64,000 bases of DNA, from positions 87,217 through 151,216 of the forward strand of contig CAKNHF010000003.1 of assembly GCA_930972465.1 (NCBI GenBank), given 5' to 3'. Source of the stretch: an uncultured Lachnospiraceae bacterium (GTDB taxonomy: Bacteria > Bacillota > Clostridia > Lachnospirales > Lachnospiraceae). A program made the translations under genes and the position numbers. The first letter of the stretch is position 1. Each line of letters starts with the position of its first letter. Below are positions 7,847 to 47,455 of the stretch, piece after piece. Below the pieces are notes generated by a model that was given only the letters and a program-made list of their open reading frames with translations, made no database searches and was not told where the DNA came from.

Positions 7847-10800
7847 ATGAAAGTTATCAAAAAGTGCGTCGCGGCAGCAGCAGCGGCAGCACTCACCCTG
7901 ACGTCACTGCCGGCAGCACCTGCGGTAACGGTGCAGGCGGCAGATGGTGTGGATCAGACGGTCCGGCTGGAACCCTGGAACGCGTCAACGTTCAACGATA
8001 CGAACGGTGACGGTCTGGGCGAGTTTGAGGGCTGGGGAACTTCGCTCTGCTGGTGGGCCAACAGAATCGGTTACAGCGAAGCGCTGACGTCTCAGGCGGC
8101 AGATTTGTTCTTCAGTGAGAACGGTCTGAACATGAACATCGGCCGCTACAACGTGGGAGGCGGCGACGCTCCTCACGAGATCGAGGAAGTGCCTGTAAAT
8201 GAAAAGGCGCAGTTCTACGATCTGGAGACAGACGGGCGGACACCGGAGTATGCCGGAACGAGCATGGAGGTCAATGACATTACTGAAATGCAGAGTGTAC
8301 AGTTCTCTAAATCAGATGCGGATTTCGGTTTTACAAAGGGAACGAATGTAGGTACATTCAAAGCGATCGGATGGATCAATGAACTCGGTGATGAGGCCGG
8401 TCAGGGAGACAACCTTCATTACACGGTGAATGTGGAGGAAGAAGGAACCTATACGGTGAAACTGCTTCTTACTCTGTCAGGTTCCAATGAGAGAGCCGTC
8501 GCGATCCGTGTAAACGGAACAGATGATTACGTTGTTGACGCAGATACAGTTAATGCGAACGTAATCGCATCCGGCAGCAACAATATGCTCTTTTCCGTCG
8601 CAATCAGCGATGTGGCGCTGAATGCCGGCGAAAATACCATTGACATCGGCGGTTCAGGCGACTGGACACTGGACTTCGTGAAGATGGCAGTGATCAAATC
8701 CGGCGAAGAAGGTGTTGTTCCGGAAGAAGATGAGTTCGCACATGCAGAGCACATCATCCGTTCGGACGGAGGCGTGCCGGGATACTGCACAGATGTAACA
8801 AAGATGGATCCGGATAAGGATGAAAGCTATTACATTAATGATCTGGGATTTGACCAGGCAGATGCGGAATGCGGTTATGCATGGAATTATGACTGGGAAG
8901 CAGATATCAACCAGATCAATGTGCTGAAAGCGGCAGCGGTTGCCAGCGGAGAGGAGTTTATCGCGGAGGCATTCTCCAACTCACCGCCGTACTTTATGAC
9001 AGTCAGCGGATGCTCTTCAGGAAACACGGATTCCAATAAGGATAATCTGAGAGAGGATTCCTATAAGGCATTTGCAAAGTATATGGCAGATGTGATCGAG
9101 CACTGGGAAGACGAGGGAGTGATCGATTTCCAGAGTACAGATCCGATGAATGAGCCCAATACAAATTACTGGGGCGCATACAGCAACAAGCAGGAAGGCT
9201 GTCATTTCGATCCGGGCGATTCACAGTCAAATATTCTCATAGCATTGAACGAGGAACTGGAATCGAGAGGAATTGACATTATCATCTCCGGTACGGATGA
9301 GACAAGCATTGATACGCAGATTAATTCTTACAATGCACTGTCCGATGAGGCGAAGAATGTGATCAGCCGTATCGACACCCATTCCTACAGCGGCTCCAAC
9401 CGTGAAGGATTAAAAGAGCTGGCAGAAAGTGAGGGAAAAAATCTCTGGATGTCAGAGGTTGACGGAACTTACACGGCCGGAACAAATGCGGGTGAGATGA
9501 CAGCTGCACTTGGCCTGGCCCAGAGAATGATGACAGACGTCAATGGTCTCGGGGCATCCGCGTGGATCCTGTGGAATGCGATCGACATGCATGCAGATGG
9601 CAGCGAATACGGGCAGAGATGGGTAAATATGGGAAGCGCTAATGACTACCTGACCATCGATGACCTGGTAGAGGCATGGAAGCCCAATGCCGACAGCAGC
9701 TACTGGGGACTTGCAGCGGCGGATCATAATAATGAAGAAATCGTGCTTACCATGAAATATTACGGATACGGACAGCTGTCCAGATATATCCGTCCGGGGT
9801 ATACGATTATCGGTTCCAGCAGAGGAAACGTGCTCTCTGCTTATGATCCGGAAGGCGGCAAGGCAGTGATCGTTGCCCTGAATACTTCTGATAAGGATAA
9901 GACCTGGAAGTTTGATCTGTCTGCATTTGAGACAATGGGATCTGATATCACAGCGATCCGTACCAGCGGCACAATGGCGGATGGTGAGAAATGGGCGGAT
10001 GTGACAGACAGCGACAACATTGTAGCGGATACAGAGAACAGAGCCTTTACAGCGACAATGAAAGCCAACTCTATCACTACATATATCGTTGAGGGAGTAG
10101 GCGCAATCAGGGAGGATGCCGGTGAAGATACAAACCCGGCTGTATCAGAGATCGAGGTAGGTGCGGATCAGGTATCCGGTGGAAAAGTATGGAACGACGG
10201 AACAACCAATACTCCGCAGACTGTTATTGATGGAAACTATGAGACATACTATGACGGCGTGGATTCCGACGACGGAACACCGGGATACGTGATGTTTGAC
10301 TTGGGCGAGGCAAAGGAGATCGCGGCCTTCAGCTACGCGCCGAGAAACGGATTCTCAGACCGGATGATCGGGGCGACAATCTACGGCTCCCACAACGGAA
10401 CAGACTGGACTCCGATCTATACGATCGACAGTGCTCCGGCACAGGGATCAGATACATTTGTATACTACAGAGATTTCAACGATGGGAAAGCAGTAACATA
10501 CCAGTATGTCAAGATTGAGCGCGCGTCCGAGTGCAATATTTCCGAATTCAGCGTATACGAACTGGCAGGAAGCTTCACGGAACAGGAAGCTGTGACAGCA
10601 GTGACGTGGGAAGGTTCAGAGCCGAAGCTTCCGGAGACTGTAGAAGTGACGATGGAAGACGGAGAGACAAAAGAAGTTTCCGTAACATGGGATCTTGACA
10701 GTATCGACGTTGGCTGGGACGAAATGGATCTGTATGACTGTTATGCAGTAACAGGGACATCATCCGAAGTGAACGGAGCGTTTACCGGATATATCCTCTG

Positions 10801-13800
10801 CGCTCCGGATGAGCTGGAATATCTGATTGACTGTATGTCAGGAGATACTCCGGTAAAACGGGACAATGAGTATGTTTCACAGGTATGGACAGCCGCATCG
10901 GCTTTGGACAGCCTGCTGAATAAGGATTCTTCCGATCAGGCGAAGACAGCTGACAACAGCTGGGGTCTGACGACAGATCCGTCCGGACTGAATACCTGGG
11001 CTTACGAGCAGGGGACGACGACACCGCTGTATTCTTACGGATACTGGGCAAATCCAGATGTGGATATTACATATGATCTGACTCTTCCGGCAGGAAAGCA
11101 TGACATCATGCTGGGCGGATATGACTTCTGGAGCGGCCGTACAATGGATGTGTATTACTCCGTAGACGGCGGAGAGAAAGAAGAACTCTGCAAGCTGACG
11201 GTCAACCATGATACCGGAAGTATGGCGCAGGGTACGATCACTCTGGCAGAAGACGCGGTCGTTACAATCTCGGTTGAGAACGGCGGCGATGGCGATCCGG
11301 TTCTCGGCTGGATTTCCGTTAATGAGCACACAACATTTACAGATCCGGAAGACTATCTGAACGCGGCACTTGACCAGGTGGATATTCCGAACAAGGACGA
11401 TGTCCGCGGTAATATTACTCTTTCCGATCAGGTGAAAGTTGACGGTGAGACGGTCAATGTGACATGGGAGACAAGCCATCCCGAAATCGTGGATGTGGAA
11501 TCCCATGAAGTGGAAGGGTATGACGCAATGCCGGCCGGCGTTGTGACAAGACCTGCCGAAGATACAGAGGTCACAATGACAGCAACCCTTTCTTATGGAG
11601 AGGAGACAAGAACAAAAGAAATTACTCTGAACGTAAAGGCAGCGCCTGAAGAAATTTCAGAGGATGACTACACAGATTACTTCTTCGCATATTTTGCCGG
11701 AGAAGGATATTCCGACGGCGAGCAGATTTATTTCGCTTCAAGCCAGGACGGCCTGAACTGGGATGACCTGAACAACAATGAGCCGGTGCTTACTTCCACA
11801 CTTGGAGAAGAGGGAGTACGTGATCCGTTCATTATCCGTTCTCCGGAGGGAGATAAGTTCTACCTGATCGCTACGGATCTTAAGATCTACGGCAACGGCG
11901 ACTGGAACGCAGCACAGAACAGCGGCAGCCAGAGCCTGATGGTATGGGAGTCCACGGACCTTGTAAACTGGAGCGACCAGCGCATGGTGGAAGTATCCGC
12001 GGATATCGGAGCGGGCTGCACATGGGCTCCGGAGGCAACTTATGATCCGCTGACAGGAGAGTATGTTGTATACTGGGCATCCAGAACACCGTCTGTTGAC
12101 AACAAACAGCGTGTATATTACGCAAAGACGAGAGACTTCTATACATTTACAGAGCCTAAGCTGTATATTGAGAAAGATCAGTCAAGTATCGATACAACAA
12201 TGATCGAGAACGACGGAACATACTACCGATATACAAAGAATGAGGGCGACTCTACAAATGAACTCGGTGCACTTACAAAGACAATCTTCATTGAGAAGAG
12301 CGACAGTGTACTCGGTGATTTTACACAGATCCCGTCTGATTCACTGAACTCATCTGACAATCAGTGGGTTGAGGGACCGACGATCTTCAAGCTGAACAGT
12401 GACGATGCGGCAGAGGATACCTGGTGCCTGCTCGTTGATGATTTCGGTGGCATCGGATACTATCCGCTTCTTACAACTGATCTTGAGAGCGGAGAATTCA
12501 CAGCTCCGGAAGAAGGAACATTCAAGATGCCGTCCAGAGCAAGACACGGCACGCCGCTCAGGGTTACAGCAGAAGAATATGCACGCATCATGGCTGCATA
12601 CGGTTCACCGGAAGAAGTGGATACAGTGACAGTTATGGGCGAGACACCGGATCTTCCGGATACTGTAACAATCAATACAGGAACTGAAGAAGTTCAGAAA
12701 GCAGTAACATGGAATCTTGACGGAGTATCCTTCGAAGGAAATCCGTACAGCTATGTGACTGTTACGGGAACAGTGGAAGGCAGCACAGTGGAAGCGATCG
12801 CAAATGTACAGATCATTCCGGCGAACATAGAATATATGATCGACTGCAATAACCTGGATTCCGAGACATGGAAGCGCGTTGCGGAAGCAAGCAGCGGACT
12901 TCTGAATACAGAGGCTGCTGATCAGGCGAAGACAGAGGACAATACATGGGGTTACACAAGTATTGTCGGATCAGATAATTCAGCCGATATGACAGGCTTC
13001 GGCCAGAGCAGCGTTTCGAATCCGTACACAGGCGGATGGTGGGCACGCGGCGGAAAGAACATTACCTATCAGGTAACACTTCCGGCGGGCGATCATCAGA
13101 TTATGCTCGGATGCACCGGATGGTGGAGCATGGGACGTCAGATGGATGTTTACTATTCAGTAAACGGCGGAACAGAGACAAAACTCTGCGACTTCGATGC
13201 AGTGAACAGCCAGGAGAGATATGCTTCAGGCACGATTTCACTTGACGAAGAAGCACTTGTTACACTTACAGTGAAGAAAGCAGACGGCAATGATCCGATC
13301 TTAAGCTGGATCAGCGTGTCTGACGTGACAGAACCGGCAGCGCTTCAGATTACTGCGAACCCGGAAGATTACGCAGGTGTCAAAGGTGAAACAGCTGTAT
13401 TCACAGTTGCGGCAGAAGGAACAGGGTTAAGTTATCAGTGGCAGTATTGCAACGCAGCTTCCAGCATCTGGAGGGATTCCTCGATGGAAGGCAGCAACTC
13501 AGAGAACGTAAGCGTTCCGATTGCAAGCTATCGAGACGGACAGAAGTACCGCTGCGTTGTGACAGATGCTTACGGCAATACGGCAACATCAGATGCGGCA
13601 GTTCTGACCATGGTTGAACCGGAAGCTCCGAAGATTACAGGACAGCCGGCGGATTACACAGGAACAGTCGGCGAGACCGCAGTGTTTGAGGTTAAGGCAT
13701 CCGGCACAGGACTTACATATCAGTGGCAGTACCGCAATGCTTCAGGCGGCACATGGAGAAATTCGTCCATGGCAGGAAATGATGAGGCGTCGATCAGTGT

Positions 13801-14194
13801 TCCGATTACAAGTGCAAGAGACGGCCAGATGTATCGCTGCGTTGTAACCGGAGAAAACGGCGGAAGCGTAATATCAAATGTTGTTTACCTTACAGTAGGC
13901 ACAGTTGACACTACTCCGGTGATTACTGCTCAGCCTGAAGACTTTACAGGAGCATCCGGCGAGACCGCACAGTTTACTGTTCAGGCGACCGGCACAGGGC
14001 TTACATATCAGTGGCAGTACTGCAATGCAACATCAAATATCTGGAGAAATTCTTCAATGGAAGGAAATGATACAGATACGATCAGCGTAACAGCAGCAAG
14101 TTATCGTAACGGACAGAAATACCGTTGTATTGTAACTTCAGAGGATGGACGGAGTATAACCACAGAGACAGCAGTATTAAATGTTACTGAATAA
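7847..14194 (+). CDS. Giant secreted GH30-GH43 arabinogalactan-degrading enzyme with Ig tail
   Basis: 2115 residues with a signal peptide (cleavage probably after VQA, residue 31). Residues 40-690 form a GH30 TIM barrel plus beta-sandwich of the endo-beta-1,6-galactanase type: GWGTSLCWWANRIG (62-75), acid/base Glu436 in MNEPN, nucleophile Glu537 in MSEVDG. The barrel is interrupted at about 112-290 by a CBM35/CBM6-like sandwich. Then follow an F5/8C (CBM32) domain (about 760-910), a Big_4-type domain, an unassigned module (about 990-1160), an aBig_2 domain, a GH43 propeller (about 1272-1590; GVRDPFII, WAPEATYD, VEGPTIF), a second Big_4 domain, a second copy of the unassigned module (1661-1831), and three Ig-like repeats (1833-2115). 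No LPXTG or SLH. Ribosome site GGGAGGGAAGGAAG precedes the ATG. The GH30 subfamily is inferred from motifs. Confidence 0.85.
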   Translation: MKVIKKCVAAAAAAALTLTSLPAAPAVTVQAADGVDQTVRLEPWNASTFNDTNGDGLGEFEGWGTSLCWWANRIGYSEALTSQAADLFFSENGLNMNIGRYNVGGGDAPHEIEEVPVNEKAQFYDLETDGRTPEYAGTSMEVNDITEMQSVQFSKSDADFGFTKGTNVGTFKAIGWINELGDEAGQGDNLHYTVNVEEEGTYTVKLLLTLSGSNERAVAIRVNGTDDYVVDADTVNANVIASGSNNMLFSVAISDVALNAGENTIDIGGSGDWTLDFVKMAVIKSGEEGVVPEEDEFAHAEHIIRSDGGVPGYCTDVTKMDPDKDESYYINDLGFDQADAECGYAWNYDWEADINQINVLKAAAVASGEEFIAEAFSNSPPYFMTVSGCSSGNTDSNKDNLREDSYKAFAKYMADVIEHWEDEGVIDFQSTDPMNEPNTNYWGAYSNKQEGCHFDPGDSQSNILIALNEELESRGIDIIISGTDETSIDTQINSYNALSDEAKNVISRIDTHSYSGSNREGLKELAESEGKNLWMSEVDGTYTAGTNAGEMTAALGLAQRMMTDVNGLGASAWILWNAIDMHADGSEYGQRWVNMGSANDYLTIDDLVEAWKPNADSSYWGLAAADHNNEEIVLTMKYYGYGQLSRYIRPGYTIIGSSRGNVLSAYDPEGGKAVIVALNTSDKDKTWKFDLSAFETMGSDITAIRTSGTMADGEKWADVTDSDNIVADTENRAFTATMKANSITTYIVEGVGAIREDAGEDTNPAVSEIEVGADQVSGGKVWNDGTTNTPQTVIDGNYETYYDGVDSDDGTPGYVMFDLGEAKEIAAFSYAPRNGFSDRMIGATIYGSHNGTDWTPIYTIDSAPAQGSDTFVYYRDFNDGKAVTYQYVKIERASECNISEFSVYELAGSFTEQEAVTAVTWEGSEPKLPETVEVTMEDGETKEVSVTWDLDSIDVGWDEMDLYDCYAVTGTSSEVNGAFTGYILCAPDELEYLIDCMSGDTPVKRDNEYVSQVWTAASALDSLLNKDSSDQAKTADNSWGLTTDPSGLNTWAYEQGTTTPLYSYGYWANPDVDITYDLTLPAGKHDIMLGGYDFWSGRTMDVYYSVDGGEKEELCKLTVNHDTGSMAQGTITLAEDAVVTISVENGGDGDPVLGWISVNEHTTFTDPEDYLNAALDQVDIPNKDDVRGNITLSDQVKVDGETVNVTWETSHPEIVDVESHEVEGYDAMPAGVVTRPAEDTEVTMTATLSYGEETRTKEITLNVKAAPEEISEDDYTDYFFAYFAGEGYSDGEQIYFASSQDGLNWDDLNNNEPVLTSTLGEEGVRDPFIIRSPEGDKFYLIATDLKIYGNGDWNAAQNSGSQSLMVWESTDLVNWSDQRMVEVSADIGAGCTWAPEATYDPLTGEYVVYWASRTPSVDNKQRVYYAKTRDFYTFTEPKLYIEKDQSSIDTTMIENDGTYYRYTKNEGDSTNELGALTKTIFIEKSDSVLGDFTQIPSDSLNSSDNQWVEGPTIFKLNSDDAAEDTWCLLVDDFGGIGYYPLLTTDLESGEFTAPEEGTFKMPSRARHGTPLRVTAEEYARIMAAYGSPEEVDTVTVMGETPDLPDTVTINTGTEEVQKAVTWNLDGVSFEGNPYSYVTVTGTVEGSTVEAIANVQIIPANIEYMIDCNNLDSETWKRVAEASSGLLNTEAADQAKTEDNTWGYTSIVGSDNSADMTGFGQSSVSNPYTGGWWARGGKNITYQVTLPAGDHQIMLGCTGWWSMGRQMDVYYSVNGGTETKLCDFDAVNSQERYASGTISLDEEALVTLTVKKADGNDPILSWISVSDVTEPAALQITANPEDYAGVKGETAVFTVAAEGTGLSYQWQYCNAASSIWRDSSMEGSNSENVSVPIASYRDGQKYRCVVTDAYGNTATSDAAVLTMVEPEAPKITGQPADYTGTVGETAVFEVKASGTGLTYQWQYRNASGGTWRNSSMAGNDEASISVPITSARDGQMYRCVVTGENGGSVISNVVYLTVGTVDTTPVITAQPEDFTGASGETAQFTVQATGTGLTYQWQYCNATSNIWRNSSMEGNDTDTISVTAASYRNGQKYRCIVTSEDGRSITTETAVLNVTE
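13343..14191 (+). repeat. Triple Ig-like tail of the GH30-GH43 protein
   Basis: Three repeats of about 90 residues with the pattern PEDY-G-GETA-F, GTGL-YQWQY, IWR-SSM, RDGQ(K)YRCVVT. The second copy has Arg instead of Cys after WQY. The protein ends within a few residues of the last beta strand. Confidence 0.9.
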
Positions 14195-14379: not shown

Positions 14380-17300
14380 ATGAAAATAAGAAGAAAAATC
14401 ATTGCCGGAATACTGGCGGCCTCAATGGTGGCTACAGCCGGCACTGTTCCTTCTGCAGCCCATGCGGAAGAGAATCCCGCAGATGGAGCTGAGCGTATCG
14501 TAGCTTCTCTGAATTTTGATGATGAAACTGTCGGGGATGCATCTGCAGTGACAAAATCCTGGGCGGATTATACAGGGAACATCACCTACGCGGAAGGGCG
14601 TACCGGGAAGGCGATTCAGCTGGACGGCTATGGACTGCGGCTGAATCAGAAAAATGTAGGAGCGGAATACACGGTGTCCATGTGGATGAAACATGACAGT
14701 GTACTGGCGGAAAACCAGCAGATCCTGTTCCTGGGACACGGGGACAGTTCATCGGAAAACTGGCTGGATATCGGCGGTGACCGCGGATCAAACAGAACCT
14801 ATGAAATATGGACGCGCAATACTACGGCGTCTTCCGAGATCAGCGGATGGAATTATCTTGATGAATCTGTTCCGCAGATTACAGGAGAATGGGTAATGCT
14901 TACAGTGACCGGCGACGGAAACAGTTTCCGCGCCTATGTCAACGGGCAGCAGGTCGAGCTGACCGGGGGCGGCATGACGGATGCTTCAATCCGGAATGCA
15001 GCCAATGTTCTGAACGGAGAGAATCAGGATATTTATGTCGGCGTCAATTACTGGGATACTGCTTTTTCGGGACTTGTGGATGATATCGTGGTTTATGGAG
15101 ACGATCTGTCAGCAGAAGAGATCAGTGCTCTGTATGAACAGCAGTATACGGAATATGTCGCTGAGCATCTGTCTCTGGGAGATCTGACTTCAGTCAGTGA
15201 AGATCTGACGCTTCCGGTATCGGATGCAGACGGTAAAGTGTCGATCGCATGGTCTTCAGATCATGAGGACATTATCTCGAATGACGGTACAGTGACACGG
15301 CCTCAGACAGATAAGGATGTCGAGGTGACGCTGACCGCGATATTTACATACGGCAGCGCCGAAATAAAGAAGGAATACACTGTAACCGTAAAACGGGAAG
15401 ATACGGCCGCAGATCTCGAGGAAGCGGCAGACGCGCTGACTCTCTGCACCGTAACAGCCGAGGATCTCAACCTTCCGTCAGAAGGAGAGAAAGGTACGGC
15501 GATCACATGGTCGTCATCGGATCCTGAAGTGATGACAGATGACGGAAAGATCGTTTCCCGTCCGGCGGCAGGAGAAGGAAATGCGGCGATTACGCTGACA
15601 GCGTCCATTTCAAAAAATGGCGCAGAAATAACAAAAGACTTTGAAGTGGAAGTGCTGGAAGAATATTACGGCTATATCTACGGATATATTACCGGGGACA
15701 ATGACCGTACAGGAAGCCTGCATCTGGCGTACAGCACAGACGGAGAGAATTATACGGCTCTGAATTCCAATGCTGGAATACACTTCGCAAAGATTGATAC
15801 CAATGACGGGACAAAAGATCTTTCAACCGGGATCCGGTTTACAGAGATCAGCCTGTTCCGGAAGGCGGACGGCAGCTTCGGCATGGCGGCGCCGCAGGGA
15901 AAGGACCAGAAGCAGGTATATATTTATGATTCCGAAGATCTGCTGACCTACAGCGGGGAAAGACTGATCGCAACGAACAGTGATCTGGGAAATGTATCGG
16001 ATGTCGCTGTCAAATACGACGCATCTGTCGGAGGTTATTACCTCTGCTGGACAGCTGCGGGAAGCCAGTACGCGAACGTGACAACAGATCTGAACACTTT
16101 CGGCGCAGCAGAGAATGCCGAGTACAGCAGGGACGAACTGAACGCAGACGCAAAAGTTCCGGACGGCGCAAAGAACGGCAGTGTGATCGGAGTCACAAAG
16201 GATGAGTATGAGACGATTCTCAACCATTTCGCAATGGCTGCCTATGTGTCAACAGAACAGCCGGAGGAAATAACCGTGGATACGGCGGCGGATGTGGAAG
16301 ACGCTCTGCCGGATACCGTGAGCGTATCATACGATGACGGATCTGCATCTGCTATGAATGTGGCCTGGGATGTGGACACCCCTGATTTCAGTAAAGCGGG
16401 GACCTATACAGTAACAGGCACGCTGAGTTCTTATGTGAATCCGCTGATCGAAGAACGTGCCGATCCGCAGATTATTTATGACGAAACAGATAAATGTTAC
16501 TACTTTACAGCGTCTTATCCGGCATACGGAAACGTGAACAACGGATATGACAGGATTATTTTAAGGAAAGCCGATACCATCAGCGGTCTTTCCGATGACA
16601 ATACGGAGATCACCATCTGGAAGGCTCCGTCAAGCGGACAGATGGCAAAACACGTATGGGCGCCGGAACTCCACAAAGTGGACGGCAGATGGTATGTATT
16701 TTTTGCGGCCGGCAATTCAGACAACATCTGGGCGATCCGCCCGTATGTGCTGGTATGCCAGGGAGATGATCCGTACGATCCGGACAACTGGGTGCAGGAA
16801 GACGGAACAGCGGAGATTCATGCCGCTACAAGTGAGGACAGTGCATATTTTCAGCACATGTCCCTGGACATGACTTATTTTACAGATGAAGATTCCGACG
16901 GTACAACGCATCACTATGTGATCTGGGCGGATATCATCGGGCAGTCAGCCCTGTATATGCAGGAAATCGATCCCGAGCGCCCGTGGGCGGGAACCGGAAA
17001 AGTGATCCAGCTGACCACCCCGGAATACGGATGGGAGCGCGACAGCGAGCGTGTAAATGAGGGACCGGCGATTCTGAAGCATGACGGCAGGATATTCTGT
17101 ACGTTCTCCGCATCAGGAACAGGACCGGAGTATTGTATCGGACTGCTTTATGCAGATGAAGATTCTGATCTTATGGATCCGGATTCATGGACAAAACTTT
17201 CATACCCCATCCTGACATCAGAGGACGTGCCGGGAGAATACGGACCGGGACATAATTCGTTTACGGTTGACGCTGACGGCAATCCGGTGTTTGTATATCA

Positions 17301-25967: not shown

Positions 25968-26074
25968 TAATGGGCTGTAAGTCCGGCAGAAAATCCTGTT
26001 TGGAATGAGTAGATTTAGAGGTGTTACGGCTTTATCGTCGGAACAGATGTATTGCCGGAACTTACGGCCCATTA
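25968..26074 (+). other. Long imperfect inverted repeat in the leader of the fourth giant gene
   Basis: The arm at 25968-25988 (TAATGGGC, then GTAAG, then CCGGCA) matches the reverse complement of 26053-26074 almost completely, with about 64 bases between. The right arm ends 26 bases before the ATG at 26101. In RNA this would be a stable 20-bp stem with a large apical region. Confidence 0.6.
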
Positions 26075-26100
26075 TGAATCTTAGAGAAGAAAGGGGAAAA

Positions 26101-32370: not shown

Positions 32371-32386
32371 CAGATGGAGGATTACA

Positions 32387-32887: not shown

Positions 32888-32934
32888 ATTACAATGCAGG
32901 ATAAAGCAGAGGCTGGAATGGGGAAATTAAAATT

Positions 32935-33666: not shown

Positions 33667-33684
33667 CAAGGAGCGGAACCGGGG

Positions 33685-34632: not shown

Positions 34633-34746
34633 AAAATCTGGGGCAGATGCAGTGTACTCTGTATCTGCCTCAGTCTTTTGATACAGGATATCATATAAGC
34701 CGGGAGCGGGGCATGGCGCAAATGTTGAGAGAGCAGGTAGAATAAT

Positions 34747-36162: not shown

Positions 36163-36202
36163 ACTGATGCTGTGCAGCGAGAAATTTAAAGGTTGAAATT
36201 AT

Positions 36203-37102: not shown

Positions 37103-37148
37103 GCAGAGAAAATATGTTCAGAAGCAGGCTGCAGCGAAAGGATAAAGA

Positions 37149-38162
37149 ATGGATTTATTTGCGGTTTTACTTGCCATACTGCTTTTATGGAATTGCGGAT
37201 ATTCAGATTTTAATCAGGAGTATCTTTCGAAAGACAATTCCAGGATTATCAAAGGTTTCTTCAGTATTTTGATTGTGATACATCATATTGCACAGAGAAC
37301 GACAGGAGGAATTATATTTCCGGCGTTCGGATACATTGGATTTCTGGTGGTGGGTGTTTTTTTCTTTTATTCCGGCTATGGAGTAATGGTACAGTATGAG
37401 TTAAAAGGGCAGCAATATCTGGAACGTTTTTTCGGAAAGAGAGTCTGGAAGGTATTGAAGCCGTACCTGCTGGCTAATGTCGTATATCTTCTGATCGATT
37501 ATATATCAGGGAGCAGATATAACTGGGACGAGATCCTGAAGAATGTGATCTCGGGAAAAATCGTTCCGTTCTCATGGTTTGTAATCTCTATTATTGTTCT
37601 GTACGGCATATTCTGGCTGTCCTGTATTTTGACCAGAAGCAGACGGGAAATTCTTCTGATTGTATTTGGTCTCACAGTATATTGCCTGATGTGTATGAAG
37701 ATGCATCTACCGGATCAATGGTATGTATCGGTATATGCATTTGCTCTGGGGTGTGGATTCTGCCGGATCAGAGAAAAAACTGAAAAATATTTCCGGACGG
37801 GATATTGGATCAAATTGTTTCTGATGCTGGCTCTGACGCTGATATTTGTGATTGCAGGAAAAACTTTTCCGCTGGAAATTTCTGAAGTTATATTTTGCAA
37901 TGCAGGCGTTATATGTTTTTGTCTGCTGATTATCGGAATTACCATGAGGTTCTCTTTTCATAATTGTGTTCTGGCTTTCCTGGGAGAGAACAATTACGAA
38001 ATTTATTTATATCAGGGGATATTTGTATCCTGTATTGTTATCGGGAAAAACTTCGTATATGCAGCCAGCACAGTCTGCCTGTTGCTGGCAGTGGTATTCA
38101 TTATGAGGAGGATTAATATACATATGTTTCCCGGAAAAGAGAAGGGAAAAAGACAGGTATGA
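37149..38162 (+). CDS. Acyltransferase family 3 membrane protein (polysaccharide O-acyltransferase)
   Basis: A 337-residue protein with about ten membrane segments. The family 3 signature is visible near the N-terminus (IIKGFFSILIVIHHIAQR, with the catalytic-type His pair, residues 32-49), followed by GFLVVGVFFFYSGYGV. It most likely acetylates the exopolysaccharide or its lipid-linked precursor. It overlaps the following polymerase gene by 4 bases. Confidence 0.85.
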   Translation: MDLFAVLLAILLLWNCGYSDFNQEYLSKDNSRIIKGFFSILIVIHHIAQRTTGGIIFPAFGYIGFLVVGVFFFYSGYGVMVQYELKGQQYLERFFGKRVWKVLKPYLLANVVYLLIDYISGSRYNWDEILKNVISGKIVPFSWFVISIIVLYGIFWLSCILTRSRREILLIVFGLTVYCLMCMKMHLPDQWYVSVYAFALGCGFCRIREKTEKYFRTGYWIKLFLMLALTLIFVIAGKTFPLEISEVIFCNAGVICFCLLIIGITMRFSFHNCVLAFLGENNYEIYLYQGIFVSCIVIGKNFVYAASTVCLLLAVVFIMRRINIHMFPGKEKGKRQV

Positions 38163-39463
38163 TAATTTATTTATTTCAGAGTCTGATATCACTGGCGGCA
38201 CTCTGGTATTATCGGGATAACCGGATCCGGTATCTTACAATTACAACAGTGGCATATTTTATGTTGTATTTTGCAACAGGGGACTTTGATATTTCGCTTT
38301 CGCTCTATTTCGGCTTTCTTATCATTGGAGCAGGTCTTCCTCGGAATATTGAGATGAGCAGTCTTTTCCTGTTATTATGGCTTGTGGTCTATACTATCGT
38401 CGGAGTTGTATTTCAGGATTTATTTGCAACCGCAACTGCTCTTATTACGCGTTTTGGATATATTATAATTTTTCTCTTTATGCTGCTGGACAAAAAGACG
38501 GACAGTTTGTGGAAAGCGGATACGGAGGACTATCGGTTTATTGTCCGGGCGGGGCTGATAACAGAGCTGGCCATCGTCGCACTGGTATGGATGCGGACTG
38601 GCATAGGCAGCAGGGTTGTTGCCGGCAATCAGCCGATAGGCGCCGGAATAGTGATTGGTCTGACAGCGGTTATCGGCTGGTGCTATCTGCGGAAAATGTT
38701 TACAGCAGCAGAAACTGCAGTCTACAGCCTGATTTCCGTTGTTGTCACAGTGCTTTCGGGAACGCGGGGCTATATGGTGATCATTGCACTGCCTCTGGCT
38801 GTTGTTATGCTGGCATATCTTCTTGATCTTCCGGAAAAGGGGAAAAATGCGCTTATCCGTATCGGGGTGTGCTGTCTGGTCGCCGCTGCGGCGATAATAT
38901 GCCTTTTTGTGATTGACAGAGGAGAAACGTTTATTCAGGTGCTGAGGCTGGACGAGGGGCTGGGCTACAGGGAAAATGAAAATTTTTTCGTCAAAGAAAT
39001 AATGCGGCGCGCTCCGTGGTATAATCAGTTATTCGGCTTTGGCTTCGGAGGAAATGCGTCTCACGTAAGCGGGTTTCTGGATGTGGTCCAGCAGGCAAGC
39101 TGGAACAGAGAATTCATGTTTCCCAGACTGCTTACAAGGACAATATTTCATAATTACTGGTATACGGTATTGTTCAAAACAGGAATTCTGGGAATGTTTA
39201 TGATCATTTTGTTTTATGGTCTGATGCTCAGAAAAATCTTCTGTGTAAAAGGACAGAGCTGGGAAAAGTGGATGCTGGGAATGATGGTAACAGGAAACAT
39301 TGTTTCACTTACTTTTCATATTACCGCTACATGTTCGATATTTGAAATGCTGCTGGTGGCGTTTTTTATCCGTCAGCTGGAAAATGAACAGATTGAGATA
39401 AGGGAGAGAAAAAAATGCGAGGAAAGAGTATCACAATATGGGACATTCAGAAAATTCTGCTGA
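38159..39463 (+). CDS. O-antigen/exopolysaccharide polymerase-like membrane protein (Wzy)
   Basis: 434 residues with about eleven hydrophobic segments and one long outer loop (about residues 265-325, rich in charged and aromatic residues, LDEGLGYRENENFFVKEIMRRAPW), the usual layout of Wzy polymerases and related ligases. Such proteins share little sequence, so the call rests on topology and on the gene cluster. Its 3' end overlaps cpsC by 49 bases in another frame. Confidence 0.78.
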   Translation: MIIYLFQSLISLAALWYYRDNRIRYLTITTVAYFMLYFATGDFDISLSLYFGFLIIGAGLPRNIEMSSLFLLLWLVVYTIVGVVFQDLFATATALITRFGYIIIFLFMLLDKKTDSLWKADTEDYRFIVRAGLITELAIVALVWMRTGIGSRVVAGNQPIGAGIVIGLTAVIGWCYLRKMFTAAETAVYSLISVVVTVLSGTRGYMVIIALPLAVVMLAYLLDLPEKGKNALIRIGVCCLVAAAAIICLFVIDRGETFIQVLRLDEGLGYRENENFFVKEIMRRAPWYNQLFGFGFGGNASHVSGFLDVVQQASWNREFMFPRLLTRTIFHNYWYTVLFKTGILGMFMIILFYGLMLRKIFCVKGQSWEKWMLGMMVTGNIVSLTFHITATCSIFEMLLVAFFIRQLENEQIEIRERKKCEERVSQYGTFRKFC

Positions 39464-40158
39464 GGAAAGGCCGGCTGATAGCAGTGTGTACTGTTTTTGG
39501 CGGACTTCTTTTGTGGGGAATCAGTACATTGCTTCTTCCGGAGATGTATACGACGTCGGCCAGCCTTTATGTGTACAGCAGTTCCGAAAGGCAGCAGGAA
39601 GACAATCTGGATATCACATCGTCAGAACTGACGGCGTCACAGCAGCTTGCAGATACCTGCGGCGTAATCATACAGAGTAATTCTGTTTTGAGCAGAGTTA
39701 TCGAACAGCTCGGTCTTTCCATTTCAGAAGAGAAACTCCGGGAGAGAATTGATGTGACCACGGTAAATGATACAGAAGTGATTTCTGTTTCTGTGTCAGA
39801 TACAAGCCCGAAACAGGCACAGGATATCGCGAATACGATCGCTGATGTTCTGCCGGATGAATTTGAACGGGTTGTCAAAGCCGGAGGAGTAGAGGTGGTA
39901 GATTATGCGGAAGAGCCGGATAGACCTTCCAGCCCCAACGTTCTCCTTAATACATTTGCGGGCGTACTTGCCGGATTCCTGATTTCCTGCGGAATTGTTT
40001 TCCTCAGAGAGTTTTTTGATACGAGGATCAGGGATGAAGAAGGCTTAAGCGAATATTTTAATTATGAGATTCCGGTGCTGGGAGTTATCCCTTCGCTTGA
40101 AGAGACTGCGGAGGACAGAAATCCGAAAAGGAGCAGACAGAGAAATGAAAAGAGATAA
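39415..40158 (+). CDS. Wzz/CpsC chain-length and kinase-adaptor protein
   Basis: A 247-residue protein of the YveK/CpsC type. Two membrane segments (about 20-39 and 180-203) flank a 140-residue extracellular domain, and the last 40 residues are cytoplasmic. It controls polymer length and activates the partner tyrosine kinase, encoded next. The ATG at 39415 follows GGGAGAG and gives a normal N-terminus (MRGKSITIWDIQKILLRKGR). It overlaps the kinase gene by 14 bases, so the two are coupled. Confidence 0.88.
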   Translation: MRGKSITIWDIQKILLRKGRLIAVCTVFGGLLLWGISTLLLPEMYTTSASLYVYSSSERQQEDNLDITSSELTASQQLADTCGVIIQSNSVLSRVIEQLGLSISEEKLRERIDVTTVNDTEVISVSVSDTSPKQAQDIANTIADVLPDEFERVVKAGGVEVVDYAEEPDRPSSPNVLLNTFAGVLAGFLISCGIVFLREFFDTRIRDEEGLSEYFNYEIPVLGVIPSLEETAEDRNPKRSRQRNEKR

Positions 40159-40864
40159 CAGAAACAAAGAAAAAAGGGTCATAATAAGCGATATAAAGAA
40201 AATGCTGAAAAGTGATTCCCCGTTCAGGATCAAAGAGGCGTATAATCTGGTGCGCGCAAAACTGCTGTTTACGACGAAAGGCGATAAATGCCCGGTTTAT
40301 GTAGTTACGAGTTCCAGGAGTGATGAAGGAAAGTCGATCAATTCGATTAATATGGCTATTTCTTTTGCAATGGCCGGGAAAAAGACATTGATTATTGACG
40401 CGGACCTGCGAAACCCCACACTGCATAAATACTTTCGGGTTCCGTCCAGTCCGGGGCTCAGTGAAGTGCTTGCGAAAATACAGGGGAAAATCAACGTAGT
40501 AAGGACAGAACAGGAAAACCTGTTTTTTCTGAGAGCGGGAGACGTCCCGCCAAATCCGGCGGAACTTTTGGGCAGTGCGGTTTTTGGGGATGTTCTGGAA
40601 CACTTGGAAGAGAAGTTCGACTGTATCTTTATTGACATGCCGCCGATGGGGATCGTGGCGGATGCAGCAGTTGTAAATGAAAATGTTACAGGATATATAC
40701 TTGTGGTACGCGCCATGGAAATGGAGTTTGACGAAATACAGTGGACGGTGGACAAGCTGAAAAGTTTTAATGCCAATCTGGTTGGATTTCTTTTAAACGA
40801 TGTCAGCGGCGCGGGAGGAAAGTATTCAGAATACGGATATTATGGATATTACGGAACAAAATAA
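40145..40864 (+). CDS. CpsD/CapB family tyrosine kinase
   Basis: The ATG at 40145 gives 239 residues, the family norm; an upstream frame to 40064 lies inside cpsC. The BY-kinase motifs are present: Walker A TSSRSDEGKS (about 53-62), Walker A' LIIDADLRNP (about 81-90), and Walker B CIFIDMPPM (about 159). The C-terminus has the tyrosine cluster YSEYGYYGYYG that is autophosphorylated in this family. Together with CpsC it regulates polymer export and length. No CpsB-type phosphatase gene is found in this cluster. Confidence 0.93.
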   Translation: MKRDNRNKEKRVIISDIKKMLKSDSPFRIKEAYNLVRAKLLFTTKGDKCPVYVVTSSRSDEGKSINSINMAISFAMAGKKTLIIDADLRNPTLHKYFRVPSSPGLSEVLAKIQGKINVVRTEQENLFFLRAGDVPPNPAELLGSAVFGDVLEHLEEKFDCIFIDMPPMGIVADAAVVNENVTGYILVVRAMEMEFDEIQWTVDKLKSFNANLVGFLLNDVSGAGGKYSEYGYYGYYGTK

Positions 40865-42455: not shown

Positions 42456-42501
42456 GATAAAATCCCTCCAATCTGTAAAATGCTTCGTATGAATTGAAAA
42501 C

Positions 42502-42540
42502 AAAGAGGACCGCAGAAAAGTTTTCTCTGCGGTCCTCTTT
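42502..42540 (-). terminator. Attenuator terminator in the ABC-F leader
   Basis: On the minus strand a 15-bp stem (42540-42526 with 42516-42502) is followed by TGTTTTC, just before the ribosome site of the ABC-F gene. An upstream leader segment can pair with its loop and 3' arm. Confidence 0.75.
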
Positions 42541-42558
42541 GCCTGGTGCATCTGAAAC

Positions 42559-42767: not shown

Positions 42768-42814
42768 CTTTTCAGCTCCAATCTTACAGGGAAGTATCCC
42801 CTTACTCTGCGGAC

Positions 42815-42843: not shown

Positions 42844-42951
42844 GAAAAAATCTTGCTGTCCCTTTTGACAGATCAATCCGGGCGCTTTTTTGATGTTCGA
42901 AAATGCAATGTGGTTGTTTCTTTATGCAATACAAACAGGTGATAAGTATTG

Positions 42952-42957
42952 TATAAT
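42952..42957 (+). promoter_or_regulatory. Probable -10 element of the fifth giant gene
   Basis: A perfect TATAAT at 42952-42957, 83 bases before the ATG. No convincing -35 hexamer is found at the right distance, so the promoter may need an activator. Confidence 0.4.
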
Positions 42958-43039
42958 ATGCATGTGTGTAAAAGGGGTTTTTCTGAAATATTCAGCAAAA
43001 TTCCCAAAGCAAATGACGCGTACAAAAAAGGAGGAGAAA

Positions 43040-46000
43040 ATGGCAGGGAAAAGGTTGAGAAAACGTGGAATTGCACTGGCATTATCGGTCATTTTGGCGG
43101 GAGGCGGCATGAGTTCACTCATTCCTTCGTATGATGTGCAGGCAGAAGAAATGTCGTATGGAACAGAAGCGGAAGCTCCGTCTTATGAAGGACGTCCGGC
43201 AGTGCATGATTACGGAAAATCAGGTGATGATCCGGATACGCCGGAAGATGAATCTGAGATTGTCGCGAACAGCGATCTTATGAAATCTGCGCAGTACAGG
43301 GAGTCAACTAAGTATAAACTGAAAGCAAACGGAACCCCTGTCTCTGTGTACAAATATCAGAAACAGGAGAATCCGGGACAGTATTACCATATGGATATCG
43401 CAAGATTCTCATCTGACGATGCGGAACCGGTATTTGAGATCGAACTGATTGACGGATCGACGATCGACAGCATTATGGCGTTCCCGGAAAGGTATTACCC
43501 GGAGGATGCTTTTTATGTAAGTGAGGACAGAACAAAAGTGACGTTCCAGATGTCAGAGGGACTCAGATACTGTATCGTGAATATCAACGGTACAGAGGAT
43601 GACACGAACGGCAAACCGCAGCTCGCGATCATCAATGACCCGACAGAGACGGACAGGCCGGATGTGAATGCACAGAACGTGCTGAACTTCAAAGAATTCT
43701 CGGACAGCTATCTGGAAGAAAATCCGATCACGGATACTGTCGGTGAAGTTTGCACCGAGGCGGGAACAGTGACAGATACATCTCTGAACAACGGAGTGGA
43801 ATACACATGGGAGTACAGTGAAGGAAAGGTTGTTTCCTATGATACGGACGATGTAACATTCCCGAATAAGCGTGCAAGACTCCCCTATGATGTGTCGGAT
43901 GCATTTCAGGCGGCTCTGGAGGAAGTGAGAAACAGTGATACTCTTGATACGATTTACTTTCCGGCGGGAACTTATGTCTGGTCCGGGCTTTCCATCAAAA
44001 ACTGGGATGGGAACGGAGCAGACGGCGCGCTGAATATCTATCTGGATGAAGACGCGCTTCTCGTTAACCGCAGGCAGGAGTGCCGTGAAGCGATGGAACC
44101 GGCCATCGGAATCTGGGACTCATCAAACATTACCGTATCCGGCCGTGGAATCATCGACGGACAGGGAACCTGGCAGAAGACGTCAGATCAGTGCCACGCA
44201 AGACTGTCCGCGCATCAGGGCGGATGTATGGTTGTACGAAGCCAGAATATCACTTTCAACGATACTTATGTAAGAGATGTCAAGCAGTGGAACTGGGAAT
44301 GCCATACCGGCGAGAATATCACGTACAATAATATCAAGGGACTTTCACCGTTCCAGCATTCATGGGTGGACGGACTTGACCTGACCAGCGGAAAGAATAT
44401 CACGGTCAACGGAGCCATTACCATGGGAAATGATGATACATTTGCCTCAGGGCACTTCAACTCCAGCAATCAGTTTCCTCAGGATCAGCTGAACAGCTAT
44501 GATCTGTCAGATCCGGCAGATGCAGACAGCGTGAGCCAGGAAGATAAGAACATTGCGGCAGCGGCAGCGATCTATAATGCAGACAGGCTTGAATGGGATC
44601 AGACTGACAATGAGAATTTTGAGATCAGCAACACTCTGGGCTGGAGTACATTTGCAAATGCCGTACGTCTCGGACATAATACGAAATGGAAGGCAGACGG
44701 CGGAAGCTATCAGATGAGAAACTATACGTTTAACAATCTGAATACGGTGCATGTGACAGGATACGGCACGAACGGCGGAGGCGGAGCTCTGAGCATACAG
44801 AACGGAACGAGCGGCTGCTATCCGAACTATGAGAGCATAGTGTTCAATAACTGTTCCTTTACGGCAAACGCGGGCAATTCTGCCAACATTCCGAATGGAA
44901 ACGATCTGACAAACTGGTATCCGGAGAATATCACGCTGTCTAACTGCTGGTTTAAGGACGCGGACACACCGCTTTCATTTAAGAAGATTAAAAACGTTAT
45001 GATCGAAGATCTCTATCTGGGAGGAAAGCTGATCGAATATACGAGTCAGGTGAATCTGACGCTCGGAGAAGGAGATCAGGCGGTTGATAATTTTGTATTT
45101 ACTGCAAACGGAGAGAGCCTGACAGAGAATGAGCTTCCGTCGATCACATATCCTGACAGTGATACGATCAATGCATATGTGGGAAATCCGCTGATCTTCT
45201 ATGTAAAGGCCGAAGATCCGGACGGCGACAGCATTGTCTGTTCAGATGCGGACGTAAGCGGAATGGAAGGCGCGGTTTATGACCCGGAAACAGGAAGATT
45301 TTCCTGGACGCCGTCCGAGGCAGACCAGGGAAATACATATGAAGTGATCTTCGGCGTCAGCGACTATACCGGACAGGAAGTTGCCAAGACCGTCAGAATC
45401 CGTGTAGGATCGCCGGAGAATGGGGAAGCAGAGTACCAGGTGTCTGAAGACGCGCATGTGCAGTCCTGGGATTCAGGAGAAAGAGACAGAACCTACGGAG
45501 AAAGAGGATACATTACGATGTCCCTGATCAGCGGAAAAGGCGAGATGGGCGAAGAATACGACGGAACCGGCGGCAGCAAAGACGGAAAGATTTCATACCT
45601 CAAATTCGACCTGTCAGATATAAGCACGATGAAAGACCAGTTTGACAGAGCTGAGCTGGAACTGACCCTGATCGGACCGAGGCGCAACAACGTACTGAAT
45701 ACAGACGATACGATAAAAGTCGCTGTGGCGGACGATAACTGGGATGCAGATGAGGTTACCTGGAATACGAAGCCGGCTTTTGAAAAAGACAATATCATCG
45801 AGTCGGAAGCGTTTAACCTGGGTGAAAATTATGGAGATGCAAATAAGAATAACGCAACAAATCCGGATCTTGCCATTAACGGTACAAAGGTGAGAGTAGA
45901 TATTACCCCTTTTGTCAATGAAGCGATTGAAGAAGGAAAATCAAGCCTGTCGCTCGCACTATGTGAAACGCAGGGCAAGGAGATCTACTTTGTAAGTACA

Positions 46001-47455
46001 GAGGGAGCGCAGGGACTTCTGAAGAATGCGTCGGCTGATATGGCTCCGAAACTTCTGCTGAACCTTCCGGTCGATCTGGAGATCGAAGGGCCGGACTCTA
46101 TGACAGTTTATGAAGGACAGGCGGCAGAATCCAACAGCTTCGCCCTGAAGGGAACCGGACCGTTTGAAGTGACTCTTTCAGGCGATACGGCGGATGGAAA
46201 GATCACATGGGACAGCGAGACGCAGCAGATCAAAGCCGCAGAAGGACTGGCAGAAGGAGAGTACGGCCTGACTATGACCGTTACAAACGGAACAGGGGCC
46301 GAGGCGAGTCACGAATTTGTTGTGACCGTTGAGAAGGATCCTGCTGCTGCGGAAGCGAGAGAAGCCCTTCAGAAAGCTTACGACGACTATAAAGACACGG
46401 AGAATAACAATTATACAGAGGAATCCTGGAATGCATTCACACAGGCTCTGGCAGAGGCAGAAGCAGTACTGGAAAAAGACACAGCATCCGTTGAAGAAAT
46501 GGAGGCTGCGAGAGACGCTCTGATAACGGCACGCGGCGCCCTGACGCAGAAAGAACCGGAAGAACCGGAGGATCCGGATCAGCCGCTGCGGATTACCGCG
46601 AATCCGGAGGATGCCGAGGGGGCAGCGGGAGATAACGCAGTGTTTACAGTGGCGGCCGAGGGCACCGGACTCACATATCAGTGGCAGTACTGCAATGCGA
46701 ATTCATCAGTCTGGAGAACATCATCTCTGAGCGGCAATGATACGCCGGAAATCACAGTGCCGATCGCGAAATACCGCGACGGACAGAAATACCGCTGTGT
46801 TGTTACGGATCAGGATGGCAACAGCGTTACATCTGAAAGTGCGTCGATTAAGATGATTATACCTGAAGATATGCCGGTGATCACATCTCAGCCGGAAGAT
46901 TTCACAGGAATCGCCGGAGAGAAGGCAGTATTCGAGGTGAAAGCAGAAGGAACGAATCTGACATATCAGTGGCAGTACTGCAACGAAGGGTCCAATGTAT
47001 GGAGAAACTCTTCAATGGAGGGAAGCACGACTTCAGCAATAAGCGTAGAGATTGCTTCCTACAGAGACGGTCAGAAGTACAGATGCGTTGTGACCGGCGG
47101 AGCAGGACACAGCGTGACCTCAGATGCAGCGGCGATTATCGTCGGTCTCGGAGAGGGAGCGCCGCAGATCACAGGCCAGCCGGAAAACTATGCGGGTGCG
47201 GTCGGAGACACAGCCGTATTTGAAGTGAAGGCAAGCGGAACAAACCTGACATATCAGTGGCAGTACTGCAATGCAGATTCATCGGTCTGGAGAGCGTCAT
47301 CCATGGAAGGCAGTACGACGGCAAGCGTAAGCGTGCCGGTTACTGCAGGCAGAGACGGACAGAAATACCGCTGCGTAATAACAAGCGGAAACGGCAGAAC
47401 AGCCATAACTGAGACGGCAGTGATGACGGTTGTTTCAGACTGGAATATCAGATGA
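43040..47455 (+). CDS. Giant secreted beta-helix (GH28-like) protein with DNRLRE domain and Ig tail
   Basis: The ATG at 43040, after AAAGGAGGAG, gives 1471 residues with a signal peptide ending VQA (about residue 35). Residues about 270-680 form a right-handed beta-helix like polygalacturonase-type GH28 enzymes: YFPAGTYVWSGL, VSGRGIIDGQGTW, and WVDGLDLTSGKNITVNGAITMGNDDTFA, whose single Asp and Asp-Asp pair stand where GH28 catalytic acids stand. Then come an Ig-like domain (about 710-795), a DNRLRE/CBM96-type domain (about 795-1010; LKFDLSDI), another Ig-like domain, a FIVAR helix pair (about 1100-1175) and three Ig repeats (1183-1471). GH49 is an alternative family. The same tail as the four enzymes upstream suggests a common programme, though the gene lies 11 kb away, beyond the exopolysaccharide cluster. 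Confidence 0.8.
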   Translation: MAGKRLRKRGIALALSVILAGGGMSSLIPSYDVQAEEMSYGTEAEAPSYEGRPAVHDYGKSGDDPDTPEDESEIVANSDLMKSAQYRESTKYKLKANGTPVSVYKYQKQENPGQYYHMDIARFSSDDAEPVFEIELIDGSTIDSIMAFPERYYPEDAFYVSEDRTKVTFQMSEGLRYCIVNINGTEDDTNGKPQLAIINDPTETDRPDVNAQNVLNFKEFSDSYLEENPITDTVGEVCTEAGTVTDTSLNNGVEYTWEYSEGKVVSYDTDDVTFPNKRARLPYDVSDAFQAALEEVRNSDTLDTIYFPAGTYVWSGLSIKNWDGNGADGALNIYLDEDALLVNRRQECREAMEPAIGIWDSSNITVSGRGIIDGQGTWQKTSDQCHARLSAHQGGCMVVRSQNITFNDTYVRDVKQWNWECHTGENITYNNIKGLSPFQHSWVDGLDLTSGKNITVNGAITMGNDDTFASGHFNSSNQFPQDQLNSYDLSDPADADSVSQEDKNIAAAAAIYNADRLEWDQTDNENFEISNTLGWSTFANAVRLGHNTKWKADGGSYQMRNYTFNNLNTVHVTGYGTNGGGGALSIQNGTSGCYPNYESIVFNNCSFTANAGNSANIPNGNDLTNWYPENITLSNCWFKDADTPLSFKKIKNVMIEDLYLGGKLIEYTSQVNLTLGEGDQAVDNFVFTANGESLTENELPSITYPDSDTINAYVGNPLIFYVKAEDPDGDSIVCSDADVSGMEGAVYDPETGRFSWTPSEADQGNTYEVIFGVSDYTGQEVAKTVRIRVGSPENGEAEYQVSEDAHVQSWDSGERDRTYGERGYITMSLISGKGEMGEEYDGTGGSKDGKISYLKFDLSDISTMKDQFDRAELELTLIGPRRNNVLNTDDTIKVAVADDNWDADEVTWNTKPAFEKDNIIESEAFNLGENYGDANKNNATNPDLAINGTKVRVDITPFVNEAIEEGKSSLSLALCETQGKEIYFVSTEGAQGLLKNASADMAPKLLLNLPVDLEIEGPDSMTVYEGQAAESNSFALKGTGPFEVTLSGDTADGKITWDSETQQIKAAEGLAEGEYGLTMTVTNGTGAEASHEFVVTVEKDPAAAEAREALQKAYDDYKDTENNNYTEESWNAFTQALAEAEAVLEKDTASVEEMEAARDALITARGALTQKEPEEPEDPDQPLRITANPEDAEGAAGDNAVFTVAAEGTGLTYQWQYCNANSSVWRTSSLSGNDTPEITVPIAKYRDGQKYRCVVTDQDGNSVTSESASIKMIIPEDMPVITSQPEDFTGIAGEKAVFEVKAEGTNLTYQWQYCNEGSNVWRNSSMEGSTTSAISVEIASYRDGQKYRCVVTGGAGHSVTSDAAAIIVGLGEGAPQITGQPENYAGAVGDTAVFEVKASGTNLTYQWQYCNADSSVWRASSMEGSTTASVSVPVTAGRDGQKYRCVITSGNGRTAITETAVMTVVSDWNIR
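46586..47452 (+). repeat. Triple Ig-like tail of the GH28-like protein
   Basis: Three Ig-like repeats, all with Cys after WQY and in YRC. The first two are closest to the first two of the protein at 19341-25940 (for example SSVWR and WQYCNEGSNVWRNSSM). Confidence 0.9.

Follow-up and report, generated by a model that had tools for sequence, protein, structure and literature searches.

A GH136 domain joined to an exo-beta-1,3-galactanase in a candidate surface-held arabinogalactan system of an uncultured Lachnospiraceae bacterium

We analysed a stretch of 64,000 nucleotides (the window) from an uncultured Lachnospiraceae bacterium (assembly GCA_930972465.1, contig CAKNHF010000003.1, positions 87,217 to 151,216), located on contig 3 of a draft genome (2.8 Mb, 86% complete). 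Four giant open reading frames (ORF1-ORF4) and a lipoprotein gene, together occupying positions 7847-32370, probably form a surface-held system for type II arabinogalactan, in which a domain of glycoside hydrolase family 136 (GH136) within ORF3 would free a galactose-containing disaccharide; our confidence in this is moderate. An earlier interpretation (the sequence-only reading) had proposed that five giant secreted proteins degrade arabinogalactan outside the cell. It is partly supported: as far as sequence can tell, the polysaccharide was mostly chosen correctly, the location is better described as probably held on the cell surface, and the core unit consists of ORF1-ORF4 and the lipoprotein gene, without ORF5. 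Domains were assigned by Pfam, NCBIfam and PDB sequence matches, whereas signal peptides, the lipobox and protein tails were judged by eye. The features are listed in Table 1.

The central domain is the beta-helix of ORF3. Its PDB matches at E <= 0.001 comprise five distinct sequences, every one of them GH136: 7v6m (E 1.8e-35), 6kqs (E 2.6e-33), 7v6i, 5gqc and 24mr, the weakest at E 2.9e-25. The AlphaFold model from a 32-row alignment (predicted local distance difference test, pLDDT, 88; predicted template modelling score, pTM, 0.92) has the beta-helix fold of LnbX and ErLnb136. The six best Foldseek chains belong to LnbX, BsaX, TnX and ErLnb136 (E 6.6e-29 to 8.8e-20), and the first match beyond GH136 is XylC (E 4.6e-10). 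According to the available part of the ErLnb136 study, D568 and D575 serve as acid/base and nucleophile, and W548 stacks galactose (PMC7335108). This numbering was verified on ErLnb136 from G159, a genome taken to be E. ramulus ATCC 29099 (locus L100; 663 amino acids from its Met). In ORF3 the two aspartates correspond to residues 1664 and 1671, encoded at 24330-24332 and 24351-24353. Sequence, AlphaFold model and the pair of catalytic Asp all point the same way, and the beta-helix is assigned accordingly as a GH136 catalytic domain. Two beta-helix domains had been recognised previously and both are real, but their identities, GH136 in ORF3 and GH28-like in ORF5, had been missed.

GH136 domains were found in 28 of the 299 genomes of the family that were searched, the own genome included. 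In six others the identity is 50-77%, and in the rest 30-39%, except for two short partial domains at 48%. Among named genomes, 42 GH136 loci were found, 25 of them close (43-90% identity) and 17 distant (25-33%). The nearest named relative of ORF3 belongs to Mediterraneibacter glycyrrhizinilyticus (87% identity across the GH136 domain), and other isolates reach 90%; the host is thus probably a gut bacterium of the Lachnospiraceae. In a quick tree of 63 rows, which leaves out L034, L035, L097, L098 and L099 and carries one kind of support, the 27 close rows form one side of a branch with a Shimodaira-Hasegawa-like approximate likelihood ratio (SH-aLRT) of 100 and a stem length of 1.4; loci L065, L067, L071, L081 and L082 appear there as L010-L014. 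The equivalents of D568, D575 and W548 are Asp, Asp and Trp in all 27 rows of this branch; among the other GH136 rows they are kept in 38, 36 and 16 of 38. H301, D308 and Q348 are fixed residues of the branch, being present in 27/27 of its rows versus 0, 0 and 1 of the 38 others. The branch also includes a lone 605-residue GH136 protein (L066) from Sporolactobacillus mangiferae, outside Lachnospiraceae, with no galactanases or LnbY-like gene found nearby.

Gene company was counted on the same strand, within at most 10 kb on each side, for 41 of the 42 loci (L099, having no match at E 1e-5, was dropped). GH43_24 lies near GH136 in 20 of the 25 close loci versus none of the 16 others. For GH30 the counts are 18/25 and 0/16, and for a gene similar to that of the partner protein LnbY, 21/25 and 8/16. 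Two of the five close loci lacking GH43_24 (L063 and L074) show less than 1.4 kb upstream. GH43_24 and GH136 share one ORF in eight loci and occupy adjacent ORFs in 12. In these 12 split loci the GH43_24 ORF also holds the GH30 domain, and its end ranges from an overlap of 19 bp with the GH136 frame to a gap of 85 bp ahead of it. GH30, GH43_24 and GH136 stand in a single frame in L064 and in the E. ramulus locus L065 (3013 and 2920 codons; the L065 frame includes some masked letters). In 19 of the 21 loci with an LnbY-like match, the match starts 89-305 bp after the GH136 frame; in L072 and L073 it follows after 3.3 kb, with a second GH30 protein between, and in the window ORF4 sits between the GH136 ORF and the LnbY-like gene. 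Because this gene order survives fusion and splitting, joint work of GH30, GH43_24, GH136 and the LnbY-like protein is strongly supported, with the caveat that the loci share descent.

GH136 enzymes require a second part, LnbY or GH136I, as stated in the accessible text of PMC7335108. The candidate for this role is the PrsA-type lipoprotein encoded downstream of ORF4. It is the sole match to the LnbY family in the own genome (E 1.4e-15 in the genome search) and matches the NCBIfam LnbY chaperone model NF047894 at E 3.3e-15. Its predicted structure (pLDDT 86.7, pTM 0.73) resembles PrsA and SurA foldases. We call it LnbY-like because of this weak but single family match and the gene company; judged by its score, it is a relative of the LnbY equivalog NF047894 and not a member. 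A partner-like gene is thus present and linked; its product is a likely helper, on which the GH136 domain may depend.

The GH30 domain of ORF1 is nearest to the solved endo-beta-1,6-galactanase 24td (E 2e-37), which we take to belong to GH30 subfamily 5. The match covers ORF1 residues 57-105, 345-581 and 611-751, and the next GH30 structure is AcXbh30A (E 3.3e-12). The two catalytic Glu are kept in 17/17 and 18/18 aligned relatives. The domain thus has the two features of subfamily 5 considered here, a nearest endo-beta-1,6-galactanase and both Glu. No match to the GH30 C-terminal Pfam model was found in the own genome. A CBM-like insert stands within the barrel (8162-8878), where a match at residues 168-268 stays under the Pfam cut-off; the GH30 of L043/L071 appears to be without it. 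Endo and exo action are both possible, because GH30_5 of B. longum is described, in the available part of PMC11186840, as an exo-beta-1,6-galactobiohydrolase.

The GH43 domain of ORF3 matches 6eug (E 6.8e-63), presumably BT3683 of GH43_24, followed by 3vsf (E 3.8e-54) and 7bys (E 6.3e-44), the exo-beta-1,3-galactanases of C. thermocellum and P. chrysosporium. The marks of subfamily 24, as given in the available part of PMC7939473, are a Glu acid, a Gln base instead of Asp, and a Glu binding O4 of galactose. By alignment position they are found in ORF3 and in 20/20 relatives with an alignable domain among the 25 loci searched. Thus the previous assignments of GH30 to the endo-beta-1,6-galactanase type and of the GH43 domain with the IQAHGGQ motif to the exo-beta-1,3-galactanase type hold: a solved enzyme of the respective type is nearest in each case, the Glu acid and Gln base of the latter are kept, and both domains fall into families with galactanase members, as far as the nearest solved structures can tell.

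The GH43 domain of ORF2 has 9nxj as the best PDB match, followed by the alpha-L-arabinofuranosidase 3akf. The second domain of ORF4 matches 3qz4 at E 1.8e-65, the next structure being at E 8.7e-28; 3qz4 is BT3675, and the domain is accordingly placed by sequence nearest BT3675, in the GH43 subfamily 34 type. The available part of PMC8939339 assigns BT3675 to GH43_34 and describes it as an arabinofuranosidase for alpha-1,3-arabinose in the arabinogalactan-protein of gum arabic. The divergent domain of ORF1 gives weak profile matches to GH130 phosphorylase (E 1.8e-4) and GH43 (E 5.6e-3); domain company alone suggests that this domain and the first domain of ORF4 are GH43_22-like. The count is five likely GH43 domains and one degenerate piece, so the earlier claim of at least four holds. 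GH30, GH43, F5/8C, LamG and CBM4_9 are all backed by Pfam and PDB matches, and the claimed DNRLRE modules correspond to matches of CBM96, which we take to be the module of that type. A module of about 160 amino acids, without a Pfam match at E 0.01, occurs twice in ORF1 (10802-11371 and 12767-13246) and once in ORF3 (22086-22610) at 30-41% mutual identity. Its matches adjoin galactanase domains in many relatives, and it is a candidate new carbohydrate-binding module.

We infer the following course of degradation. The arabinofuranosidase-type GH43 domains of ORF2 and ORF4, perhaps also that of ORF1, would take arabinose off the side chains, GH30 would cleave the beta-1,6-galactan side chains, and GH43_24 would take galactose from the beta-1,3 backbone. 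The LnbY-like lipoprotein would fold and complete the GH136 domain, which would free a galactose-ended disaccharide from arabinogalactan. Known GH136 enzymes free lacto-N-biose from Galb1-3GlcNAcb1-3Gal-. Both linkages recur in the backbone of arabinogalactan, Galb1-3Galb1-3Gal, where the middle sugar is a different one. Because the linkages match, the tryptophan and the Asp pair are kept and the branch has fixed residues of its own, beta-1,3-galactobiose is, by analogy, the most economical guess for the product; it may also be beta-1,6-galactobiose or a capped disaccharide. A galactose-containing product fits the neighbourhood of locus L067 from Lactonifactor: no galactanase was found there, and the GH136 gene is preceded by genes for a regulator of the AraC type, a sugar-binding protein, a pair of permeases and a split GH2 beta-galactosidase. 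Only tentatively do we extend this to the whole branch, as an exo-beta-1,3-galactobiosidase for arabinogalactan completed by a dedicated LnbY-like lipoprotein, in a GH30-GH43_24-GH136-LnbY cassette found across gut Lachnospiraceae. To our knowledge, this would be the first activity of GH136 on a plant glycan.

Several observations weigh against this interpretation. The tree program warns of long branches meeting, also at the stem of the arabinogalactan-linked branch, and the company counts, given the shared descent, are not independent events. GH43_24 and GH30 are missing from the 10 kb upstream in L066, L067 and L068, and a LnbY-like gene on the same strand from the 10 kb downstream in L066 and L082. 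The LnbY-like protein scores 56.6 bits versus a cut-off of 400 for NF047894 and so fails as a family member. Its sequence alone has no PDB match up to E 5, a six-sequence profile gives unrelated PDB matches only (best E 0.0067), ErLnb136 is not among the best 50 structure matches listed for its model, where PrsA and SurA stand instead, and no equivalent of Y145 of ErLnb136 could be assigned. GH127, the family used on beta-arabinose of arabinogalactan-type glycans, was not found in the own genome. A GH112 gene is present. In the available parts of the literature, GH112 handles lacto-N-biose in Roseburia (PMC7335108), a mucin degrader carries GH43_24 together with GH136, and GH43_24 of Akkermansia is called a mucin beta-galactosidase (PMC12997984).

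The GH112 gene and the mucin degrader leave some probability for host-glycan use. The galactanases could act as described while GH136 retains its classical lacto-N-biosidase activity, so that the giant protein serves both host and plant glycans. We consider this rather unlikely, although known GH136 enzymes act on lacto-N-biose-type host glycans (in the available text of PMC7335108, PMC10349097 and PMC12997984) and the Asp pair and the tryptophan equivalent are kept. The branch is long, separate and marked by H301, D308 and Q348, and the fusion or adjacency of GH43_24, confined to its loci, argues for another substrate. E. ramulus holds a branch-type GH136 (L065, G159) and already has a separate classical enzyme, ErLnb136, in G159. 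Furthermore, GH20 was not found in the own genome at its 86% completeness (control matches in 4 of 14 genomes), and a mucin lifestyle was rejected, though GH112 is present. GH101 was not found either; its controls matched in none and the result was not counted.

The sequence-only reading, with five giant arabinogalactan proteins and accessory beta-helix domains, agrees with the galactanase and arabinofuranosidase placements. It is nevertheless improbable as a whole, as the beta-helix of ORF3 retains the GH136 active-site pair in full and is accompanied by the gene for a likely partner, and as ORF5 relatives are remote from the unit in both genomes for which the distance was worked out, by more than 1 Mb in G102 and by about 50 kb in G159. 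Such relatives occur in eight of the ten genomes tried (one copy broken, some partial). ORF5 was on this account rejected as a tight part of the unit, to which it probably does not belong. Its beta-helix matches Pfam GH28 partially (E 7.9e-6; 25.6 bits, cut-off 22.9), and no GH28 chain appeared in the PDB search. This GH28-like domain, and the similarity of the ORF2 GH43 domain to 9nxj and 3akf, would fit a unit whose main target is arabinan or pectin side chains, galactan cutting being secondary. That is very improbable, since most relatives keep GH30, GH43_24, GH136 and the LnbY-like gene, and not ORF2 or ORF5.

All five giant ORFs are present as claimed, and signal peptides visible in the translations support secretion of each. 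In ORF4 and ORF5 these peptides start after internal Met codons, giving about 1703 and 1471 amino acids, so that the earlier size range of 1471-2199 residues fits. Pfam and PDB matches also confirm Big/aBig domains and an immunoglobulin-like (Ig) tail on all five proteins. The ends of ORF3 orthologues, judged by eye, vary: an Ig tail is seen in the window and L058, and Ig matches lie behind GH136 in L059; L060, L061 and L063 have FIVAR-like repeats and a C-terminal membrane anchor; L062, L064 and the G159 protein end in wall-binding-type repeats. This exchange of the Ig tail for anchors or wall-binding tails suggests that it, too, serves surface retention.

A cluster of exopolysaccharide genes with a small lipoprotein follows the LnbY-like gene in the window, and among the 25 related loci only in L058 and L059, several loci ending too soon; its membership in the system is unproven. 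Binding of the neighbouring exopolysaccharide by the Ig tail is a speculation that we considered, since these are the three loci with Ig tails. No such cluster was found downstream in L060, L062, L063, L064 and L065, which have other tails (L062 and L063 offer a few kb; L061 ends too soon). The link stays a speculation: Ig-like tails occur in six of the 299 family genomes and the cluster marker protein in two, with only the own genome in common. A 471-residue protein of the cluster (34747-36162) is found in 2/299 family genomes at E 1e-20 and matches none of the NCBIfam or Pfam models at E 0.001. A sixth Ig-tailed protein, with a divergent GH43_24-like domain (26% identity), is encoded on contig 25 of G000 (17642-18526, L047/L048). 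It was rejected as a second locus, as the surrounding scanned genes are housekeeping or transport genes.

Table 1. Features of the window discussed in the text
Feature	Positions	Strand	Remarks
AraC-type regulator	6321..7535	+	just upstream of ORF1; possible regulator
ORF1	7847..14194	+	2115 aa (amino acids); secreted; GH30, F5/8C, unnamed ~160-aa modules, GH43-like domain, Ig tail
ORF1 GH30 catalytic domain	7949..10126	+	interrupted by CBM-like insert at ~8162-8878
ORF1 divergent GH43-like domain	11672..12616	+	residues 1276-1590; 40% identity to first GH43 of ORF4
ORF2	14380..19239	+	1619 aa; LamG, degenerate GH43 piece, GH43, LamG, Ig tail
ORF2 degenerate GH43 piece	15664-16254	+	residues 429-625; weak likeness to first GH43 of ORF4
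ORF2 GH43	16432-17418	+	nearest to alpha-L-arabinofuranosidase-type chains
ORF3	19341..25940	+	2199 aa; F5/8C, GH43_24, unnamed module, CBM4_9, GH136, Ig tail
ORF3 GH43_24 (exo-beta-1,3-galactanase type)	20691..21845	+	PDB matches and catalytic residues
ORF3 GH136 catalytic beta-helix, arabinogalactan-linked branch	23322..25079	+	lacto-N-biosidase family by sequence, predicted fold and residues
ORF4	26005..31212	+	1735 aa listed, ~1703 from likely start; LamG, GH43-like, LamG, GH43, Ig tail
ORF4 first domain, GH43-like	27385-28389	+	Pfam/PDB matches
ORF4 second GH43	29380-30288	+	nearest to 3qz4
LnbY-like lipoprotein, PrsA-type	31312..32370	+	352 aa; TTG start; lipobox by eye; possible GH136 partner
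Small lipoprotein and exopolysaccharide gene cluster	32387..40864	+	membership in system unproven
ORF5	42890..47455	+	~1471 aa from likely start; GH28-like beta-helix, CBM96, FIVAR, Ig tail

The gene for the E. ramulus fused protein is preceded, on its own strand, by a homologue 50% identical to the AraC-type regulator that stands before ORF1. As the sequence-only reading had stated, no sugar importer adjoins the unit: no oligosaccharide-type importer was found among the window ORFs scanned, and the importer at 590-4207 has as its nearest NCBIfam models those named 'putative B6 ABC transporter', with scores under their cut-offs, which neither backs nor contradicts the nucleoside specificity proposed by the sequence-only reading. 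An ABC-F protein gene lies on the minus strand between the polysaccharide cluster and ORF5 (40974-42551; Lsa family model, 721.6 bits versus a cut-off of 750). A short ORF at 47883-48218 matches a middle portion of HsdR, the type I restriction subunit, and is apparently a remnant.

The candidate system resembles LnbX/LnbY of B. longum and ErLnb136 of E. ramulus in the predicted beta-helix fold, the Asp pair, the galactose-stacking Trp and a partner-like gene nearby. Unlike these enzymes, the GH136 domain of ORF3 (25-26% identical to them in structural alignments) belongs to a separate branch, is fused to an exo-beta-1,3-galactanase and is part of a secreted protein that also has binding modules and an Ig tail; unlike LnbY, the partner is a lipoprotein with a peptidyl-prolyl isomerase-type part and a score far under the LnbY model. 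The structures nearest to the ORF3 and ORF4 domains are those of BT3683 (GH43_24) and BT3675 (GH43_34) of B. thetaiotaomicron, whose enzymes, in contrast, are separate proteins of a Gram-negative system; we know of no GH136 in that system. The galactanase families are also those of Bl1,3Gal (GH43_24) and Bl1,6Gal (GH30_5) of B. longum, and in ORF4 LamG and Ig parts accompany a pair of GH43 domains, an arrangement also reported for BlArafE (GH43_22 and GH43_34). Unlike the B. longum arabinogalactan set, the window adds GH136 and fuses catalytic domains, no GH136 being named in the available parts of the two papers on that set (PMC8939339, PMC11186840).

In the available parts of PMC7335108, PMC10349097 and PMC12997984, the presence of GH136 is read as an indication that milk oligosaccharides or mucin are used. 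Among the papers retrieved, no title or abstract opening ties GH136 to arabinogalactan, though an earlier mention is possible. Our observations suggest that this family, known for sugars of human milk and mucus, also digests plant fibre. If so, a GH136 gene in a Lachnospiraceae genome would not by itself imply the use of host glycans, and the branch would have a disaccharide-releasing activity that is new and is served by a helper protein of its own. E. ramulus, which carries both types of GH136, would be a ready test organism.

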